A DNA stretch of 64,000 nt, from positions 1 to 64,000 of the forward strand of contig JAPLFH010000039.1 in NCBI GenBank assembly GCA_026390815.1. The letters are read 5' to 3'. Numbering within the stretch: the first letter of the stretch is position 1; each line of letters opens with the position of its first letter. Shown here one piece after another: positions 2,886 through 14,663 of the stretch. The translations under genes were made by a program, and so were the position numbers. This DNA is from Ignavibacteriales bacterium. Its GTDB lineage: Bacteria; Bacteroidota; Ignavibacteria; Ignavibacteriales; SURF-24. The notes under the pieces are model-generated. The model searched no databases, was not told where the DNA came from, and saw nothing but the letters and a program-made list of their open reading frames with translations.

Positions 2886-4883
2886 TTATTTAAGCAGAAT
2901 CATCCTCTTCACATTTCTAAACTCTTTACCATAATTGGACCTGGCATACATTGAGTAGAAGTAAACTCCTGAGTTTAAGTCTGAACCATTAAATGGAATT
3001 TCATATTGACCGGCTGATTGAGTTTGATTGAGTAATTCTTTTACTTCTTGTCCAATCGAGTTAAATATTTTTATTGTAGTGTAGCTTTCATTTGGTAAAG
3101 AATATTTAATTATCGTTATCGGATTAAATGGATTAGGAAAATTTTGCGAAAGAGAAAAGTCCTTGGGTAAATTATTTTCTTCTTCTACTTTAGTTGGTCG
3201 CTCAACAAATTCCAAATAATTGAAATTGAAGCCTCCAAAAAAGAACTGAATTTGTAGAGAATGATCTCCGGCTGATAGAAATTTATTTTCTAGTTTTATT
3301 GTGGACCATTTTTGCCACCCACCTGTAACAGGAACTGTTATAAAATCAGAAAAATTATTTCCATCCAATTTAAGAAGAATTTTTCCACCGGCTGTGTTGG
3401 CGGCAATTCTGATAAGTGCATCATAGTTGCCTTCTTGTAAGACAGTTACGGTAAATTTTAGCCAATCTCCAGTTTCTATCCATCCAATATCAAATCCATT
3501 TGTATAAACATCAGAACACTTTTCAATATCTACTCCATCATTTCTGTATTCATATCCATTATTATAGACAGCACCTCCACCAGTGTTTTCATAAACTTTA
3601 TCCTGATAAGCAAAACCTATTTTGCCAAGATCGTAATTAGCACCATAAATTCTACCCGGAATAAAACCATCTCCAAATGATATTGTCTCAGAATTCCCAG
3701 GTTGTCTAATTAGGGCATCAACAACATCTTTGTTTTGAGTGCAATTATCTATTCCAAGTTTTTCCGCTTGCTTAATTAATGCATTAGTAGCAAACTCAAC
3801 TGTTGGTTTCGTAACGCTTCCACTCCAATAATCAAGAAGCTTTTGGTAGTCTGTTGTAAGTGGTGCGGACAAAGGTCCAGCTATCGAAGCAATTTTTTTA
3901 TGAGGCCACCAAGCCCAGCCAATGTTATGTAGTTTCATTAGTTCAACACATTCAACAAACCAGGAGTTAGAGTTTTCTCCGGTTTCTCCTAACCAAAGCG
4001 GAACGTTAAAACTATTTTGAATATTTAAAAGATATTGTATGGATTGTGTGTTTGGTTCATTCCAGTATTTATGGAAACTGTAAACCATATTATTATCCCA
4101 AGGTGGAGTTAGTCCATTAAAGTCGGTGGCATACCAATTTCCTTCAATAAACAGAATATGGTTAGCATCTACATTCCGTATAGCATTAGTAATATTAATA
4201 TAAAGCTCGCGAAGAAGATCATTATTTGCACCTAAGTTGTATGCAGTTTCGTTTATCAAATCGTATCCGCCAATCCATTCTTTATCAGAATATCTCTCAG
4301 CAATTTTTTTCCAGAGATCAACTGTTCTTGTTCGATATGAAGCATCCAACCACAATCTTGCTTCGCCGTCGCTATCGCTTATGTTGTCTTTATTCTGCGC
4401 ACCTGGGGCGCAGTGCAAGTCAAGAATTAAATAAAGTTTGTTTTGCTCGCACCAACTAAGTAAACTATCGATAATTGCAAATCCTTCTTCTAAGTAAACA
4501 CCAGGCTGATTTGGCGGTGTAAGCATTTTATATGTTAATGGCAATCTAATTGAATTAAATCCCCATTGTGCTATTTTATCAACGTCTCTTTTGTTCACAT
4601 AATATTTTTGATAAGTTTTGTAAAATAATTCTGTGTTAGCAGTCCCAATTAGTGATTCAATTTTATTTCTTATTTGTGTTGGAGAATTTGCGAATCCCGA
4701 TGTATGTAGCATATAACCTTCCGGTACAAGCCAGCCACCCAAACCAATACCACGTAAATATATTTCCTTGCCTTGCGAGTCAACGATTTTTTTTCCGCTT
4801 GTTTTAAGAAAACCTTCTGCGTTAAGATTTACCGACTGTATAATAAGAATAAATATTAAAATTAAGATTCTATGTGTGGGCAT
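2886..4883 (-). CDS. Secreted GH5 endo-beta-glucanase with CBM6 and T9SS tail
   Basis: 665 residues from the ATG at 4883. A longer frame to 4994 exists but overlaps the upstream gene, and the signal peptide MPTHRILILIFILIIQ starts at 4883. Residues 25-400 are a GH5 (clan GH-A) barrel: LRGIGLGGWLVPEG start, acid/base E212 in DLINE, nucleophile E300 in WLGETGE; the opening resembles exo-1,3-glucanase-like GH5 members. Residues about 440-590 are a CBM6 (GWIETGDWLKFTV and FNFNYLEF motifs). The C-terminus is a T9SS sorting domain (NFPNPFNPITIIKYSLP, ending KRMILLK). Likely cleaves beta-1,3- or beta-1,4-glucan outside the cell. It follows the SGNH-TPR gene after 58 bases. Confidence 0.92.
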   Translation of the reverse strand: MPTHRILILIFILIIQSVNLNAEGFLKTSGKKIVDSQGKEIYLRGIGLGGWLVPEGYMLHTSGFANSPTQIRNKIESLIGTANTELFYKTYQKYYVNKRDVDKIAQWGFNSIRLPLTYKMLTPPNQPGVYLEEGFAIIDSLLSWCEQNKLYLILDLHCAPGAQNKDNISDSDGEARLWLDASYRTRTVDLWKKIAERYSDKEWIGGYDLINETAYNLGANNDLLRELYINITNAIRNVDANHILFIEGNWYATDFNGLTPPWDNNMVYSFHKYWNEPNTQSIQYLLNIQNSFNVPLWLGETGENSNSWFVECVELMKLHNIGWAWWPHKKIASIAGPLSAPLTTDYQKLLDYWSGSVTKPTVEFATNALIKQAEKLGIDNCTQNKDVVDALIRQPGNSETISFGDGFIPGRIYGANYDLGKIGFAYQDKVYENTGGGAVYNNGYEYRNDGVDIEKCSDVYTNGFDIGWIETGDWLKFTVTVLQEGNYDALIRIAANTAGGKILLKLDGNNFSDFITVPVTGGWQKWSTIKLENKFLSAGDHSLQIQFFFGGFNFNYLEFVERPTKVEEENNLPKDFSLSQNFPNPFNPITIIKYSLPNESYTTIKIFNSIGQEVKELLNQTQSAGQYEIPFNGSDLNSGVYFYSMYARSNYGKEFRNVKRMILLK

Positions 4884-4941
4884 AATTGTTCCGATCTTTG
4901 TTACGAAAAAATTGCAAATTAAACCAACTAAATATGGGACA

Positions 4942-6810
4942 TTATTTTCGTTTTTTAACTTCATTCTGAGCCAACTGAAGAACTGCTCTTCCATTAGGAT
5001 AATCAGGATTTAATTCCAGGCACTTTTTAATTGCATCCAATGCTTTATCAAACTTAGCATCTCTGCCATAAGCACCGGTTAGATAGAAATAAACTTCAGC
5101 ATCCAGGTGTGAGTATAATAAACTCTTTTCAAAATACTGAATAGCTTGCTTATTATTCTTCCTAGAAAAATTCACGTATCCAAGCCACTTAGTTGAAAAT
5201 GCATTTGGAGATTGATTATATCTGATTAATAAGAAGGGATAGGCTTCTTCATAAAGTTTATTTTTAATAAGTAGATCAATCAAATTGTCACAATATTCAA
5301 CTTGATATGGAAAAGTATTAATAAGGATACTCATTTCCTTTTTGTAAGCTGTAAAGTTTTTTTCTCTTAGAAATTTATCTGCCAATATTTTATGCGAATT
5401 GCCCCACCCAAGAGAACCAGATGCAACAAAGTAAGCCAACGAATCATAAATATTAGAAAGCTTAATCCGATTTAAGTTTTGTTCATTTACATCTTCAACA
5501 TAAGGCCAATCGTTTTTTAAAATTCTTATTCTGTACAATGCAATTAACGTATCTATCTTGGAAAAATTAAATTCTGCTTTAACAATACTATCCTGTTTTT
5601 CCTGGGGAATATTTTGCGGAATTGCATTCGGTAAATATTTGTTCTGTTCCAGGACTTCAAATATTTTTTTCCCCATTAATTGGTAACCAAAAAGATTTGG
5701 ATGCAAATGATCCGTCATTAAATTGTTACCAACAATTTTATTGGAACTGACAGAAGCAAACAAAGAATCAATGTTAGCCACTGGATAATTGAATTCTTTT
5801 GCCAGTTTATTAATTGTTAAATTAAATTTTTCCGGAGCACGAAAGCGAAGTAAATCCAGATCTTTTGCTAATCGAAAAAGAGAATCGGCATTGTTTTGTT
5901 TCCCAGACTTTAGCTCTGCAATTGCTTTCTCATAGATACTATCTGCACCAGCAATGTTTGCCTGATTTTTAGAGACAAATGGTTTTTGATCTTTTAAATT
6001 TGACACTAAGCTTGCTAATACAACATTTATATTATTCGCCTTAGCTAATTGAAGCATTTCACGTAAATTATCTTCAAATTGTTTTACACCCTTATTAAAC
6101 AACTCTGAGTTTAGTGGAACGTACTGCCCTTTAGCTAACTTAGCCATCAATGTAGAATTACTTTGATTCGTAAAACTTTTTTTGGTAAAGATTGATGAAA
6201 TCCATTTAATTGTATTCCGAAGCAATTCAGTTGTCTTAAACTTATCTACCCAAAGCGAAAATTTTATCAACCACCTTGAACTTCCAAAAGATTCTGTTGA
6301 TGCAACTCCTAAAGCGCCATAATATTCATTATGCCCACCGTAGAAAATAATCAAATCAGGTTTTTGATCCAGTATACCAGGGAAAAGATCCAGCCATGTG
6401 TAAGAATTGGTTGCAGTAATTCCACAATTAATTACTTCTATTTGAGCTTCGGGATATAGTAATCGTAATCTGTCTTCAATGTAGTTTGAAAAAGATCCGT
6501 TTGGTAAATAAGGAAAACCAGCAGCGCTACTTTCTCCAACTACAAAAACGCGGAAAGCATTTTTCTTTTTCTCTTTTAAAAAGCTGGAGCTTAAAACTAA
6601 AGGTGCGTTTAGTGTGGAATGGAAATACCGTTTTGCAATGTAGTTATTAAGAGTTATTTGATTTTCATTAATTTCAATCCATTGACGCTGGTCTATGCCA
6701 TAGTTAAACAATCTCAATGATAATTCAAGTACAATCAAAAGAAATATTGGAATCAATATTAGAACTAAATAAAACCATTTTGGATATTTCTTTTGTTTAA
6801 GATTTTTCAT
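4942..6810 (-). CDS. Membrane-anchored SGNH/GDSL hydrolase fused to TPR repeats
   Basis: 622 residues. One N-terminal membrane helix (about 12-31) anchors the protein with its catalytic part outside the cytoplasm. The SGNH fold shows block I GESSAAG (S94), block III YGGHNEYYG (N161) and block V DHLHPN (D367/H370), so the triad is intact. Residues 285-320 and 500-615 look like tetratricopeptide repeats (KAIAELKSGKQNNADSLFR; YFYLTGAYGRDAKFDKALD). SGNH enzymes remove acetyl or other acyl groups from sugars or lipids. The neighbouring glucanases suggest a polysaccharide deacetylase, but no substrate can be read from the sequence. No T9SS tail. Confidence 0.82.
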   Translation of the reverse strand: MKNLKQKKYPKWFYLVLILIPIFLLIVLELSLRLFNYGIDQRQWIEINENQITLNNYIAKRYFHSTLNAPLVLSSSFLKEKKKNAFRVFVVGESSAAGFPYLPNGSFSNYIEDRLRLLYPEAQIEVINCGITATNSYTWLDLFPGILDQKPDLIIFYGGHNEYYGALGVASTESFGSSRWLIKFSLWVDKFKTTELLRNTIKWISSIFTKKSFTNQSNSTLMAKLAKGQYVPLNSELFNKGVKQFEDNLREMLQLAKANNINVVLASLVSNLKDQKPFVSKNQANIAGADSIYEKAIAELKSGKQNNADSLFRLAKDLDLLRFRAPEKFNLTINKLAKEFNYPVANIDSLFASVSSNKIVGNNLMTDHLHPNLFGYQLMGKKIFEVLEQNKYLPNAIPQNIPQEKQDSIVKAEFNFSKIDTLIALYRIRILKNDWPYVEDVNEQNLNRIKLSNIYDSLAYFVASGSLGWGNSHKILADKFLREKNFTAYKKEMSILINTFPYQVEYCDNLIDLLIKNKLYEEAYPFLLIRYNQSPNAFSTKWLGYVNFSRKNNKQAIQYFEKSLLYSHLDAEVYFYLTGAYGRDAKFDKALDAIKKCLELNPDYPNGRAVLQLAQNEVKKRK

Positions 6811-6950: not shown

Positions 6951-9905
6951 CTACTTTAATAACAGGATTTTTTTACTTGAAGAATAATCTCCAGCATGAA
7001 AGCGTATTATATATGTTCCACTTACAACATCATTACCGGAATCATTTTTAGCATTCCAAACAATTGAATAAACTCCGGCGTTTTGCTTGCTATCAAATAA
7101 TGATGCGACTTTTTTCCCAAGAATATCATAAATAATAATTTTCACTTGAGATTCTTCAGGAAGAAAATACTTAATTGTTGTTGTGCTATTAAAAGGATTC
7201 GGAAAATTCTGATCAATATGAAAACTTAGTTCTGACTCTTCGCCTTTTTCTGTAAAAGTGTTTACACCTTTCCCAAATTTTTCTATTCCATACCATAACG
7301 TTTTGTTCTGGTTTTGGTCAAATGTAACATCAAAATAATTTGAGATTGTTGGCTGCAAAGTTTTAACCTGGTTAACATTTACTCTTCCATAACTATCTAA
7401 AGGTGAAATAATAATTGAATCAGCAAAAATTTTTAGTTGGAAAGAAACGCTTATCGGCTTCATCTGCGTTGGGTTTCTTCCCCAGTTGTTATGGAAAGTA
7501 TTAATCCCATCCCAAACCATTCCAGTATTTTGTGTAACGGTTGAAATTGACATTAAAGATTTTGAAGAAATCGAAAGAGAATCATTTGTTAACGTTGTCC
7601 AGGTGAAAGTCCCAAAGCCATCTGCATTTTTAATTTGTAGATTACCAATTTTAGTATTAATAAAATCATTCAGGAATCCTGCAGCTCCAATAAATTTTTT
7701 GGTATTAATAGAAATCAATCCATCAGTATTCCAGATTATCTCTTTCGTATTGCTTTTATATGGGTTAACAGGGTCATCTTGTATAGAAGTAAAATCAGTT
7801 GGAATACTGCTGTCAAAGGATTCATTTCTTAGTTCATTTATCAATGCGTTTCTTTTTGCAAAAAGTGATGGTCCCGACCAATCTCCGCTTTCATTTTTAG
7901 AAAGTAGACTAATTTGATTATTGGTGTAGTTGAGTTTTACAGTTTCAATTGATTTTGAAATGAATCCGTTTCTAAAAGCATATGCGCAGGAAGGCATCAG
8001 CGACATCATCGCAGTGTTTCTCTGAAGATCGAAATAGCTTGTTATTTTATCTGTGGACCAGTCATTGGATCCGTTGTAATCGAAAAACATAATTGCATCT
8101 GTATTATTAAAAGCGGAATACGCAGTAACAAAAATAAGTCCTTCAGTTTGATAGCGATTTGGAAAACAATAATTAACTTCGCTGATGGTGAATGGTTTAC
8201 CGACCGAAGGAACCCCCGCAAAAACATCAGCTATCGAAAATCCTGATTTTGATGTAACCATCGGTTGATTGGAAATTTGCCAATCAGTTGCAGACCAGGG
8301 AATATTTGGGAATGAAGGATGATCCCAATAAGTGTGGTTGTCAATATAATCTAATTTGGATTGAGTTGTTAAATCGCCAGGTCCAACATTCCAGTTTGAA
8401 CCAACAATTGGCACTTTAACTTTAAGTATGTTCACCAGATAATTTTTCATATCAGCAAAATAATCATCCTGAAGATTTATATAGAATGCTGACATATTTT
8501 TTACGCGTGCATCAGTAAATTTCACAGCCTCAGAATAATCAATTCTAAGTACTGAACTATTCTCAACCAACTCACCAGGCATCAAACCAGTTTTACCAGT
8601 TAATCCAAGTTTAATTTCATCGAACCAATAATTGCCAATTGAATTATTAAATTGAAATGCTAATCTTGTATTGCTGCAGTTATCACTAGCTTTGAAAGTA
8701 AAGGAATATACTTTCCAGTTGCTATTGATATTGAATTCTTTCCAGGCATATCCTGTCCACGGAGAAGTTTCCTCTCCAACTGAAACAAAAATTTTTTTAT
8801 TGCCATCGGCTCGGGCTGCAAACTCAACTGAATAGATTGAATCTTTCAAGATTTTTAAATTCACTTGCTTCCACTGAATATGCCAGCTTGTACCAGAAAC
8901 TTTTGTAACTGTTACTTTAGCAGATAAAAATCCTTGATAAGGATTAATAACATCTTTTGTTTGTTGGGCAGAAGCATTCGGTGAGTCCAACTCAACTTGC
9001 CAGTTATTTAACGCCGCAACAGATTCAAAGTCACCATTTTTAATCAGGTTAGAAAAATTTCCGTTAGTTGCATCAGCATTCCAGCTATTAGCAAGGTTTT
9101 GTGTTGAAGTATATTTCCCGGAAAGAAATTTATTCCACAAACTGTCGAGCATTCTGTTATGCCGCCATATTAGTTTTCCTCCATCACCAAAAGTTTTAAG
9201 CACATTATCGCGCCACATTCGATACAAAGAATTCTCATTTGTAATTTCTAACATTGCCATTACAGGGTCGTCAACAAGCGGTAAATTGGTGTAAGGATTA
9301 ATGTGTGTTAAAAGCTGCTGTGCATATTCCTTTTGTAGTTGAATTAAATAAGGATCAAAAATAGTAACCCCTTTTCCATAATCAGGAATTGAATCGGCAT
9401 TTGCTACGCCATCCATTTCTTTAAATGCCCGAGCAACATGTAGGTTAATATTAGCATAGATGCTATTCTTTTTTAACGCTGCAATCAAACATTCAAAATT
9501 ATCAAGATAAAAAGGATTTAATGAACGAGTATTTACTGCATCTGCAAATAAACTTCTTTCGCTCCAGGCATTATCCATATGATGAAATCGTACCAGGTTA
9601 AAACCCATCTTTCTCAGTCTTCCAGCAATAGCGTCTGCTTTATCAGGATCTGGAAAAGCTCCATCAGCAACTAAGTTTGTTCCCCAAAAACGAATTGGAG
9701 TTCCTCCTATTGCAAAATTTCCATTTGAGTTTACTGAAACAAATTCTGTAATTACATGAGCAGGAAATACAGGAAGAAATTTTTGTGATGTGGAATCATC
9801 CCATGGAAGATTAAAATTGAAACCACCAGAAAAATTTTGTGCTGTAAGAATTATATTAAAAGAGAATATAGCTGCCAGAACCAGAAATAATTTCATCATT
9901 TTCAT
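6951..9905 (-). CDS. T9SS-secreted clan GH-A glycosidase with CBM4/9-like domain inserted in the barrel
   Basis: 984 residues from ATG 9905 (signal peptide MKMMKLFLVLAAIFSF; an ATG at 9929 would add eight residues ahead of it). The N-terminal part has barrel motifs GTPIRFWGTNL, GFNLVRFHHMD, NINLHVAR and the acid/base-like Glu in LEITNENS (residue 224); a second candidate Glu lies in PFTISEVNY (residue 576). Between them, about 287-434, is a CBM4/9-type jelly roll (KNGDFES...NNW, WHIQWKQ, IGNYWFDEIKLG). The end is a T9SS domain (NFPNPFNSTTTIKYFLP, SSKKILLLK). Related to cellulase-like proteins of Ignavibacteria; I cannot assign a GH family. Activity on beta-glucan or mannan is an inference from context. 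Confidence 0.75.
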   Translation of the reverse strand: MKMMKLFLVLAAIFSFNIILTAQNFSGGFNFNLPWDDSTSQKFLPVFPAHVITEFVSVNSNGNFAIGGTPIRFWGTNLVADGAFPDPDKADAIAGRLRKMGFNLVRFHHMDNAWSERSLFADAVNTRSLNPFYLDNFECLIAALKKNSIYANINLHVARAFKEMDGVANADSIPDYGKGVTIFDPYLIQLQKEYAQQLLTHINPYTNLPLVDDPVMAMLEITNENSLYRMWRDNVLKTFGDGGKLIWRHNRMLDSLWNKFLSGKYTSTQNLANSWNADATNGNFSNLIKNGDFESVAALNNWQVELDSPNASAQQTKDVINPYQGFLSAKVTVTKVSGTSWHIQWKQVNLKILKDSIYSVEFAARADGNKKIFVSVGEETSPWTGYAWKEFNINSNWKVYSFTFKASDNCSNTRLAFQFNNSIGNYWFDEIKLGLTGKTGLMPGELVENSSVLRIDYSEAVKFTDARVKNMSAFYINLQDDYFADMKNYLVNILKVKVPIVGSNWNVGPGDLTTQSKLDYIDNHTYWDHPSFPNIPWSATDWQISNQPMVTSKSGFSIADVFAGVPSVGKPFTISEVNYCFPNRYQTEGLIFVTAYSAFNNTDAIMFFDYNGSNDWSTDKITSYFDLQRNTAMMSLMPSCAYAFRNGFISKSIETVKLNYTNNQISLLSKNESGDWSGPSLFAKRNALINELRNESFDSSIPTDFTSIQDDPVNPYKSNTKEIIWNTDGLISINTKKFIGAAGFLNDFINTKIGNLQIKNADGFGTFTWTTLTNDSLSISSKSLMSISTVTQNTGMVWDGINTFHNNWGRNPTQMKPISVSFQLKIFADSIIISPLDSYGRVNVNQVKTLQPTISNYFDVTFDQNQNKTLWYGIEKFGKGVNTFTEKGEESELSFHIDQNFPNPFNSTTTIKYFLPEESQVKIIIYDILGKKVASLFDSKQNAGVYSIVWNAKNDSGNDVVSGTYIIRFHAGDYSSSKKILLLK

Positions 9906-9954
9906 GTTATTAAAATTAATTATTGTCATTGTAAATCATTTTCTTATTCATTTT

Positions 9955-12567
9955 TTATTTTAAATAAACCATCTTCTTGCTTTTTGTTCCGGATAAAGTT
10001 TCCAAACAGTAAAAATAAATTCCACTTGTTAATCCTGGCTTTCCGTCAGGTAGATTTGAAGCATCAAAATCAAGGGAATATTCTCCAGGACCTTTTTCAC
10101 TATTTAGAAGCGTGGCTACTTCGTTACCCAATACATCAAAAATTTTTAAACTCGTATGAGAATGGTTTGCCAAGTGCCATTTAATAATTGTAGATGAATT
10201 AAATGGATTAGGATAATTCTGGTACAGAAAAAAATCATCAGGAATGGATGAGTTTAATTCTTCACCAATTGAAGTAAAAGCATCATTAATTTTTCCAGGT
10301 GTTCCTTTAGTAAATGAAGCGCCCCAGTTTTGCGGCAGAGAATTATCCTGATGCGGATTTTTTAATTCAAGAGTTGCGCCTTTACCATCTGGTTCTGTTG
10401 GCCAGGCCGAGTTGTTTTTATAAGTAAGTGAGTCAGCAATATTCAGGTTATTATCATAAAGCCTAATTTTTTCTCCCTCGCTATTTAATCCAAAATTAAA
10501 ATTCCCAATTCTATTTTTAACATTTGGAAAGAGCGCTGAAAATTTAGAAGTATCTCTGCATAAAACTAAATATTGATCGCTCCCAACCATCGTTCTCTTA
10601 GGAATTACGAATGAATGTGTGTCATCACCATCTTTAAATACCCAGTCAAAAATATCAATTGAAGAGGATGAACAGTTGTATAGCTCAACCCAATCTTCAG
10701 TATCAAATGAAGAAGCAGAATTATAATTTATTTCATTAATAACAACAGATGTATTTGTACTATCAACTTCGAAAAGTGCTGTAACTGAAACATTATTTGA
10801 TAGAGCTAAAGAAATAGTTGATGAATTTGTATCATCAACTCCTGTCCACTCTTTAAATTTATACCCGGCATTAGGTACAGCCGTTAGCTTGATTGGAATA
10901 CCAAGGAAATAGTTTCCTCGCCATGGAAAATCATTTAAAGTAAGCGAGTTAAGAACTATTCTGCCGGCATTTTCCGGAAAAGAATTTACCGAAACTGTTG
11001 CAACTCCGCTTAGGTTAAATTTTTGAGCAAAATGAGAAAGCATAAATATTACTCTTTTATCCGCAAAGTTTTCTAAAACAGCCACTCGTTTGTTCCAATC
11101 TGTTAGAGTTCCACCGTTCCATCGTTTTAAATGTCGTGTTATTTCTGGTTCAATATTATTTTTAAACTGTTTGATTTTTTTTATAACGGTATCAGCGATG
11201 AAAATTGAATTTGCATAATCGGAAAAACGAGTAATAAAATTATTTTTGAATTCAGTGCTTACTAATAATTTTCTTAAAAGCAATGTAGACCAGGGTGGAT
11301 TAGGCCAATTTGGACCGTTAGCAGCCGTTGCATCTTCTAACATATTATGTTTATATGCAAATTGATCGAATAAGCCAAAACCAAAATCCGTATCATATAA
11401 AATCCAGCGCCACTTTCCAGAAGGGCTCTGGGGACACCAGAATTTAATATTGTTGCCGGGCCAGTCCGTATTATCAAAATAAATTTGGGAAACCAAATAG
11501 CTTATATATTCATCAATATCAATCTTCGATTTAATATAATTGTAAATAGCTGGATTATTAATATCATATTTGGAAATGAAATTCATTAATGATTTATAAT
11601 CAACATTACTACCTGTTACCACAGAACCATCTGTTTCAAGAATATTTATGCTGTCGGGATTTAAATCATGATGGGAAGCAATATAATGTTCATTTACTTT
11701 TTCTCTGATATCATGAATTCCCCAGTATTCCCCATTTATAAAAACCACGGCAGGATGGTAAGCAAGTACATCAACACCAGTATTATTAATCAGAGAATGC
11801 ATTAGCGCATCTCTTAGCATTGTATTATTCCAATCGTTTCCGGAATTGCGTAAAACGATACTTTCAAATTTATCCAACGGCAGGTTATTAAAAAATTTGT
11901 AATTGATATTTTTGAAACCATATTTATTCCGGGCAAATATTGCAAGCGATTTTTGATTTTGTGCTCTTCCATAGGTGCCATAAATTTTTACTCCGGCATC
12001 TATACTAAATGCTAAACTACCATCCGGCTCAAATAACTCAACATGAATTGGTCTTTCCCAATCTTGCCAAAAATTAGCACCAAAGTATGGATACACTGGA
12101 TTTGCACTATCCCCAAACACGTATATTCCATAATTATTATCCCAAAGATTTTCCGGATTTGTTGAAATGGAAAAAATCTGCAAAGTTGTCTTTTCATTTA
12201 TAAAATAGGTGTGGGTTACCGATTTACTCCTAAGTGAATCGGAAATGAAAGAGCAAGCTCTTACCACCGTCGTCTTTGCAATAAGAATCTTGTTAATATA
12301 TTTGGTTGAATTATTTGTTGGTTCGGAACCATCCAGTGTGTAAAAAACATTTTCAGTTGATTGAATTGGATTTAGCTCAAGATAAAATGATGAATTATAA
12401 AACCCACCTTCAGCAGAAAATTGTGGCGGGATAAGTGACGTATCTATTTGCGCTGTTTGTGGTGGCGAATATAAATCCTGTAACTTATCTAAAGAATTAG
12501 ACTGAGAAAAAATTCTAATGGAAATAACGGTAAGGACTATAAATATTTTAAATGAGTTCTGATTCAT
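9955..12567 (-). CDS. Secreted CotH-kinase family protein with HEX_C, lamin-tail and T9SS domains
   Basis: 870 residues with a signal peptide. Order: chitobiase/hexosaminidase C-terminal-like Ig domain (about 50-115, TLDGSEPTNNSTKY); CotH domain (about 125-480) with WILYDTDFGFGL, the signature of the CotH protein-kinase fold; a bacterial repeat (KEWTGVDDTNSS); a lamin-tail domain (about 620-760, VINEINYNS...DWVELYN); and a T9SS tail (NYPNPFNSSTIIKWHL, SKKMVYLK). CotH proteins phosphorylate spore-coat proteins in Bacillus, and homologues occur near cellulolytic systems of anaerobes. Here an extracellular structural or substrate-modifying role is possible but unproved. It follows GH16 and precedes the GH-A glycosidase on the same strand. 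Confidence 0.87.
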   Translation of the reverse strand: MNQNSFKIFIVLTVISIRIFSQSNSLDKLQDLYSPPQTAQIDTSLIPPQFSAEGGFYNSSFYLELNPIQSTENVFYTLDGSEPTNNSTKYINKILIAKTTVVRACSFISDSLRSKSVTHTYFINEKTTLQIFSISTNPENLWDNNYGIYVFGDSANPVYPYFGANFWQDWERPIHVELFEPDGSLAFSIDAGVKIYGTYGRAQNQKSLAIFARNKYGFKNINYKFFNNLPLDKFESIVLRNSGNDWNNTMLRDALMHSLINNTGVDVLAYHPAVVFINGEYWGIHDIREKVNEHYIASHHDLNPDSINILETDGSVVTGSNVDYKSLMNFISKYDINNPAIYNYIKSKIDIDEYISYLVSQIYFDNTDWPGNNIKFWCPQSPSGKWRWILYDTDFGFGLFDQFAYKHNMLEDATAANGPNWPNPPWSTLLLRKLLVSTEFKNNFITRFSDYANSIFIADTVIKKIKQFKNNIEPEITRHLKRWNGGTLTDWNKRVAVLENFADKRVIFMLSHFAQKFNLSGVATVSVNSFPENAGRIVLNSLTLNDFPWRGNYFLGIPIKLTAVPNAGYKFKEWTGVDDTNSSTISLALSNNVSVTALFEVDSTNTSVVINEINYNSASSFDTEDWVELYNCSSSSIDIFDWVFKDGDDTHSFVIPKRTMVGSDQYLVLCRDTSKFSALFPNVKNRIGNFNFGLNSEGEKIRLYDNNLNIADSLTYKNNSAWPTEPDGKGATLELKNPHQDNSLPQNWGASFTKGTPGKINDAFTSIGEELNSSIPDDFFLYQNYPNPFNSSTIIKWHLANHSHTSLKIFDVLGNEVATLLNSEKGPGEYSLDFDASNLPDGKPGLTSGIYFYCLETLSGTKSKKMVYLK

Positions 12568-12806: not shown

Positions 12807-14621
12807 CTAATTTAATAAAATTAATTTCTTCGATTGTAGAAAGTCTTTTCCTTTTAACGAATAAAAATAAACATTCGAGCTAAGATGTTTTCCCGCGCCA
12901 TCAATTGCATTCCAAATAAACTCATTCTTACCTGGTTTAACAATTCCTAAATCTCTAAAAAAAATTTGTTTTCCCAGTATATCGTGAATAAAAAGACTTA
13001 AATGCTCTTCCCGCTGTAAATAAAATTGTATCTTTGTTGTGCCATTAAATGGATTAGGAAAATTCTGTCCAAGAATAAACGAAGATGGAAATTCTTTTGA
13101 TTCATTAAGAATACCAGTTGAAGCATCTTCAATAATAATTCCATTCAACAAAGTTCTATTAATCTGTGCCGCCAAATTTATTTCTAATATTTCATCAGTT
13201 ACAGAAACATTTTGTATCGTTAACTCATAGGCAGTGTTTATACCAGCAATCTTAAATAGATCAAGATCTTTAACTTCAACTTTACCTTCCACATAAACAT
13301 CAAAAACCCGGCTTTCATTCTGCGAGAAAAAATTTTCCGCCATCATCAGCTTTAACCTGTAAGTTCCATTTGGCACTCTTACTTTGTAACCAACAAGACC
13401 AAATCTTTCACTTCTATAAATTGCATCTTCATCAGTTCCATTTATTTGAAGAGTGGAAGGATATTGTGTTATTGATCCATCCATGTAACCATACTCCGCA
13501 CTCTCCTTCCATGGCTGGTCCGCAAGATAATCACCATTTGCTAATCCGCCAACATCTATTTTAATAGGAAAAACAACTGGCTTGGGCATGTTTATGGTTA
13601 CTGCCTTTAATGAAGAAATGTTTTGTGGAATTGCTCTATCTTTTATTTTTTGTGCTATTACATTATAAGTCTTGGATAAATCAAAATTAGTTAAATAAAG
13701 CATAACACTTTTCTGATCTGGGAGAAGGCTTGCACTATCAACAGTTACGTTTGGAATAAGATAATTAGCTTTATTTTCACTGCTTGCTTTATCAAGTTCC
13801 TCAGAAAAATTTACAACAACTTTATTTACAGATGCACGTGCAGAAACAAGCGAAGGAGGAAGTTTATCAGTATATCCTAAATTTGTTTTATCAGTAAGAC
13901 AAAGAATAAGATTGCCATCCTTGAAAACCGCATTCTCTACCATAAAGTCGCAATTGTTTCCGTCAAATGTATGTGTTGCTTTTTCCCATCTAGACTGATC
14001 CCAAGAATCAAAATTATCTGTCCACACATTTGTAAAGTTATTGTTTGTTCCATAATTGCCGGAATCTGGAGTAAAGGAGTAATAACTTACAAAGTCATAG
14101 TAAGAGAAAGCTGGAAGAGAATTAACATCCAATACCCCCGCCCAATCCACATATGCCGGAGGCCAAACATTCATCATTATTTTTTGTGGAAGGGTTAGTG
14201 TTTGAATATGAGCACCGGTTTGACGGTAAACTTCTTCACCATCGATAAACCATGCAACATATTGAGGAGTCCATTCAAACGCATAAGTGTGGTAATCTTC
14301 ACCAGGATTAAAATTTACAGGTTGGGCACGAACATGATTCGTTTGCCCTGGAGTTATAGTATTAAACTGAGCTTCATTATTATATCTTCCCATTATCTCA
14401 AGGTCAATTTCGTTCCATTTAGAAGTACCGCCACCTCCATCGTAATAAGTAAAAAAGGAAGCCAGCATTCCTTCGCGTTGTGCAGACTTATATCTTACTT
14501 CAAATCTTCCATAAGTATATGCTTCTTTTGTTCTGTATTCAGCACCTTTAAAATTCTTTGCCATTAAAGAATTTGAAAGTAGAAAAGCAAATAGTAAGAA
14601 TAAAATTGTTGCTTTTTTCAT
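12807..14621 (-). CDS. T9SS-secreted GH16 glucanase (EXDXE type) with Ig-like and malectin domains
   Basis: 604 residues from ATG 14621, where a signal peptide MKKATILFLLFAFLL begins. GH16 domain about 22-210 with catalytic NEIDLEIMG (E71, D73, E75), the EXDXE form found in lichenases and xyloglucan-active enzymes, with no beta-bulge. It is followed by an SbsA-type Ig-like domain (PPSLVSARASVNKVVVNFSE), a malectin-like carbohydrate-binding domain (about 360-505, KIDVGGLANGDYLADQ...LNGIIIED) and a T9SS tail (NFPNPFNGTTKIQFYL). Probably cuts mixed-linkage beta-1,3-1,4-glucan outside the cell. It sits 28-43 bases upstream of no gene on its own strand; the LamG phosphatase gene ends at 14664 just ahead of it, so the two could be co-transcribed. 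Confidence 0.9.
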   Translation of the reverse strand: MKKATILFLLFAFLLSNSLMAKNFKGAEYRTKEAYTYGRFEVRYKSAQREGMLASFFTYYDGGGGTSKWNEIDLEIMGRYNNEAQFNTITPGQTNHVRAQPVNFNPGEDYHTYAFEWTPQYVAWFIDGEEVYRQTGAHIQTLTLPQKIMMNVWPPAYVDWAGVLDVNSLPAFSYYDFVSYYSFTPDSGNYGTNNNFTNVWTDNFDSWDQSRWEKATHTFDGNNCDFMVENAVFKDGNLILCLTDKTNLGYTDKLPPSLVSARASVNKVVVNFSEELDKASSENKANYLIPNVTVDSASLLPDQKSVMLYLTNFDLSKTYNVIAQKIKDRAIPQNISSLKAVTINMPKPVVFPIKIDVGGLANGDYLADQPWKESAEYGYMDGSITQYPSTLQINGTDEDAIYRSERFGLVGYKVRVPNGTYRLKLMMAENFFSQNESRVFDVYVEGKVEVKDLDLFKIAGINTAYELTIQNVSVTDEILEINLAAQINRTLLNGIIIEDASTGILNESKEFPSSFILGQNFPNPFNGTTKIQFYLQREEHLSLFIHDILGKQIFFRDLGIVKPGKNEFIWNAIDGAGKHLSSNVYFYSLKGKDFLQSKKLILLN

Positions 14622-14663
14622 AATAAAAAATCTCATGTTTAATTAATTTTTAAAATTTCATTT

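Follow-up and report, generated by a model that had tools for sequence, protein, structure and literature searches.

A CBM4 module within the GH-A barrel of a putative type IX-secreted GH148 beta-glucanase from an Ignavibacteriales bacterium

The founding member of glycoside hydrolase family GH148 is EngU, described by Angelov et al. in 2017 (PMC5725463). It is a 905-residue protein with a CBM4 module (residues 293-430) between GH-A1 (83-241) and GH-A2 (476-616), and with an unassigned C-terminal part that is required for a functional enzyme (PMC5725463). Its authors placed the CBM between beta4 and alpha4, noted partial similarity to GH42 in GH-A1, and defined the family by sequence similarity to the catalytic domain (A1 plus A2) of EngU (PMC5725463). 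Activity is lost altogether in the mutants E239A (in INNEN) and E581A (in VTEYN) and falls to 3% in D123A (PMC5725463). Taken by itself, the CBM4 binds beta-glucan, lichenin and CMC, holding a single glycan chain; the enzyme prefers mixed-linkage glucans, cutting mainly their beta-1,3 linkages (PMC5725463). Full-length homologues are found in Latescibacteria and other uncultured bacteria, with up to 48% identity (PMC5725463).

The initial annotation of the locus analysed here remarked that binding modules normally sit at the ends of such enzymes, which is fair, although internal CBMs have already been reported in GH10, GH13, GH26 and GH148 (PMC13357471). The GH10 xylanase BiXyn10A and the GH26 enzyme BcWH2_GH26 (PMC13357471) likewise have a CBM inside a clan GH-A catalytic domain; they belong to other GH families and their insertions are, as far as is known, independent.

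The window (the whole 64,000-nucleotide stretch of contig JAPLFH010000039.1 that was analysed) contains at 6951..9929 a coding sequence for 992 amino acids, with Met9 (9905) as an alternative start; this gene and all of the neighbours referred to below lie on the minus strand. Residues 9-30 (9840..9905) resemble a signal peptide, as judged by eye from MKMMKLFLVLAAIFSFNIILTAQ. The first half-barrel, GH-A1 (residues 60-272, 9114..9752), comprises beta1 to beta4 and is placed by a profile match in all relatives, by the strands of a structure model and by fold alignment. The inserted CBM4 module (residues 293-427, 8649..9053) is followed by the second half-barrel, GH-A2 (residues 470-645, 7995..8522), which has a profile match in all relatives and is modelled with low confidence, by a C-terminal domain that is kept across the relatives (a profile match; residues 646-886, 7272..7994), and by a T9SS type A sorting domain (residues 909-989, 6963..7205). 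In the 992-residue protein, Pfam matches only CBM_4_9, FlgD_ig and the T9SS tail. Searches of Pfam and NCBIfam gave no catalytic-family model for it, and in Pfam neither PF00150 (Cellulase, GH5), which three relatives (L051, L056 and L057) match below the cut-off only, nor GH42, which is matched above the cut-off in the distant relative L073. The annotation libraries used thus detect the CBM and the sorting tail of this protein and miss the enzyme between them. That the gene is an annotation artefact was rejected, because the uninterrupted frame is conserved across more than 15 genomes, and the succession GH-A1, CBM, GH-A2 is not a chance pattern. A scan around the gene for promoters and terminators gave a number of sites not above that in shuffled sequence.

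Two glutamates stand out as candidate catalytic residues: E232 (9234..9236), the putative acid/base, in AMLEITNEN, and E584 (8178..8180), the putative nucleophile, in PFTISEVNY. Motif and conservation pick out both, and they are 352 residues apart. The initial annotation had named the same pair, with the right spacing, as Glu 224 and Glu 576; these numbers are 8 too low because they were counted from Met9. No full-length homologue of the close group lacks either residue; around the first the group has NE[ND], and around the second SE[YIV]. The pair is of the GH148 type, with NEN on beta4 and [TS]E[YV]N on beta7 (strands taken from the model). D119 (9573..9575, in VRFHHMD) is conserved in nearly all relatives and, judging by its spacing, is the probable counterpart of EngU D123.

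The module between the two glutamates, which lies between beta4 with the acid/base and beta7 with the nucleophile, matches Pfam CBM_4_9 (PF02018) over residues 293-427 (E 8e-14; 52.6 bits, the cut-off being 25.9). Its nearest solved relative, by sequence and by fold, is 1GUI, the CBM4 of laminarinase 16A of Thermotoga maritima, to which the modelled CBM aligns with Z 20.5 and rmsd 1.4; a score above the Pfam cut-off and a CBM4 fold thus both place it in CBM4. 1GUI comes from a laminarinase with no split GH-A barrel, and its ligand specificity may differ. The structures 4mgs and 4qpw of GH10 CBMs also match the insert.

Set side by side from the published description, EngU and the 992-residue protein share a split GH-A barrel, a CBM4 after beta4 (293-430 in EngU, 293-427 here) and the pairs INNEN E239 with ITNEN E232 and VTEYN E581 with ISEVN E584; each also has a C-terminal part, conserved among the relatives in the case of the protein described here. 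Unlike EngU, that protein is an uncharacterised one from Ignavibacteriota and ends in a T9SS sorting tail, and the likeness is one of description, not of alignment. The GH148 traits present in it include the insertion after beta4 and a CBM4 as in the nearest relatives of EngU. It had been proposed that this protein may found a new GH family or subfamily. That proposal is not supported, EngU already showing the same architecture, a published hallmark of GH148 since 2017 (PMC5725463); the architecture is a known one, to whose family the 992-residue protein most likely adds a member. Reading from the layout of EngU, we consider the protein very probably to be a T9SS-secreted endo-beta-glucanase of GH148, clan GH-A, with CBM4 in the beta4-alpha4 loop.

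The principal alternative is a sister family of GH148, with the same clan and insertion site, distant enough from EngU to count as a new family or subfamily and perhaps with a different substrate (beta-1,3-glucan or mannan, for example). It would draw on the likeness to EngU being descriptive, on a CBM whose nearest relative is that of a laminarinase and on a barrel fold nearest to GH5 mannanases. We consider it improbable nevertheless: the positions and motifs of all parts match EngU almost residue for residue, EngU has homologues in uncultured bacteria whose identity reaches 48% (PMC5725463), and the homologues from KSB1 are about 50% identical to the 992-residue protein.

An AlphaFold model of the 992-residue protein (mean pLDDT 62.8, built from an alignment of only 9 sequences) places four strands of the barrel ahead of the CBM, the last of them at 224-230, directly before E232. 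The CBM sandwich is followed by a helix (473-501) and by three strands (508-513, 528-532 and 580-585), with E584 on the third. Confidence is good as far as residue 512 or so; beyond that it is low over much of the chain, the second half falling below pLDDT 50 in long stretches. Across the CBM, the barrel aligns to GH5 mannanases (1rh9, Z 21.1 over 271 residues, model residues 31-585; 9m20, Z 21.2) and, with Z about 17, to GH42 and GH164 barrels. The barrel therefore continues past the CBM, since four strands precede the module and the structural alignment crosses it. This upholds the claim of the initial annotation that a CBM4/9 jelly roll lies inside a GH-A barrel, between its candidate catalytic glutamates; Pfam, the relatives, the model and the fold alignment agree on it. 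A barrel complete before the jelly roll, the outcome that would have told against this claim, is not what the model shows. In the model, then, CBM4 interrupts a single GH-A barrel, of which the second half is predicted with low confidence.

Relatives without any insertion also bear on whether the barrel is a single one. In a verrucomicrobial protein (L056) and a spirochaetal one (L057), GH-A1 is followed by GH-A2 with a gap between profile matches of 4 and 0 residues, respectively, and the Glu pairs are intact and 145 and 141 residues apart; the two halves are therefore one domain. These are related proteins without the insertion, unlike what was reported in 2017, when no GH148 protein without inserted sequence was found (PMC5725463). 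Both (L056:3657-6881 and L057:3240-6899) carry a long N-terminal extension of about 440-570 residues. A second fold run, on L056, was poor (pLDDT 52.9), its first half still matching GH5 and GH42 barrels. That the barrel is finished before the CBM, with the second Glu in a separate domain, is scarcely credible, since the low confidence of the second-half model in its favour is set against a model with no more than four strands of the barrel ahead of the CBM, both halves back to back in the CBM-less relatives, a fold alignment that covers both halves and the essential role of both Glu in EngU (PMC5725463). A reading as a pair of independent enzymes linked through a CBM was also considered and rejected.

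In two further proteins, L059 (a Paraburkholderia plasmid) and L060 (Sinorhizobium meliloti pSymB), 29 and 67 residues lie between the profile matches. The genes of these CBM4-less proteobacterial proteins (L059:2791-4920 and L060:3836-5995) adjoin genes of polysaccharide biosynthesis (the nucleotide-sugar genes rfbA and rfbB) or of glycosyltransferases, and the neighbours suggest a role in exopolysaccharide handling rather than in biomass breakdown.

Of the 95 related genomes searched, 11 encode full-length homologues, 43-62% identical; one further homologue, split into two ORFs, and a C-terminal fragment also occur among them. The homologue of genome G086 (L032:1501-4451) consists of two overlapping ORFs with the break inside the CBM, a probable frameshift. 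Further homologues come from KSB1 and Bacteroidetes metagenome bins, and distant ones from one verrucomicrobial and one spirochaetal bin; a search of viral contigs found no relatives. Every full-length relative in the close group has the order GH-A1, CBM4, GH-A2, C-terminal domain. The GH148 architecture accordingly recurs in Ignavibacteriota and KSB1 genomes, where it is coupled to type IX secretion. On the tree, presence of the CBM takes 2 changes, and the insertion-free L059, L060 and L073 are on long branches.

One Bacteroidota clade (support 99/98, with 12 members in the tree) has the same domain order, including a CBM4-like insertion and the C-terminal domain. In all 21 of its sampled sequences (L080-L097 and L106-L108, many of them identical with the genes L067-L072 and L074-L079) another residue (S, A, G, R, H, D, F, T or N) stands in place of the nucleophile Glu, and only some retain Glu as the acid/base. 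The alignment around the nucleophile site is gap-free, with KP or KA from six positions before it and usually Pro six after. The members of the clade look like secreted, probably non-catalytic relatives, possible pseudo-glycosidases. We give even odds to a reading in which the site after beta4 where the CBM enters is an evolutionary switch and the nucleophile-less branch may now act as a secreted glycan-binding pseudo-glycosidase. The insertion-free relatives and this clade would together allow a comparative test of what the inserted CBM does.

As for the enzyme itself, the two half-barrels would close around the inserted CBM4, which, lying next to the cleft, would hold a single glucan chain. 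If the analogy with EngU and clan GH-A holds, E232 as acid/base and E584 as nucleophile would carry out a retaining double displacement, presumably on mixed-linkage beta-1,3/1,4-glucan or a related beta-glucan. The neighbourhood fits such a role, the substrate being a matter of inference. At 12807..14636 lies a GH16 gene resembling 1,3-1,4-beta-glucanases, with a malectin domain, whose best solved matches are the beta-glucanases 3axd (1,3-1,4-, E 8e-51) and 1mve; at 2886..4994 lies a GH5 gene with CBM6/35 and a T9SS tail. GH5 is also found beside four homologues (L030, L062, L065 and L066) and a CBM6-like piece beside L052. Between the GH16 gene and the 992-codon gene, 25 bases upstream of the latter, is a CotH kinase-like/lamin-tail protein with a T9SS tail (9955..12567); this gene and the GH16 gene also occur beside homologue L050. 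On the other side is a GDSL-like hydrolase with TPR repeats (4942..6810, from Pfam).

Type IX secretion is indicated by the C-terminal sorting tail, which matches TIGR04183 with 41.5 bits against a cut-off of 23. In the 4.5 Mb genome to which the window belongs (G000), the protein has matches at no fewer than about 150 places, the T9SS tail alone accounting for nearly all of them (150 of 219 candidates scored), and the type IX secretome predicted from these tails is very large.
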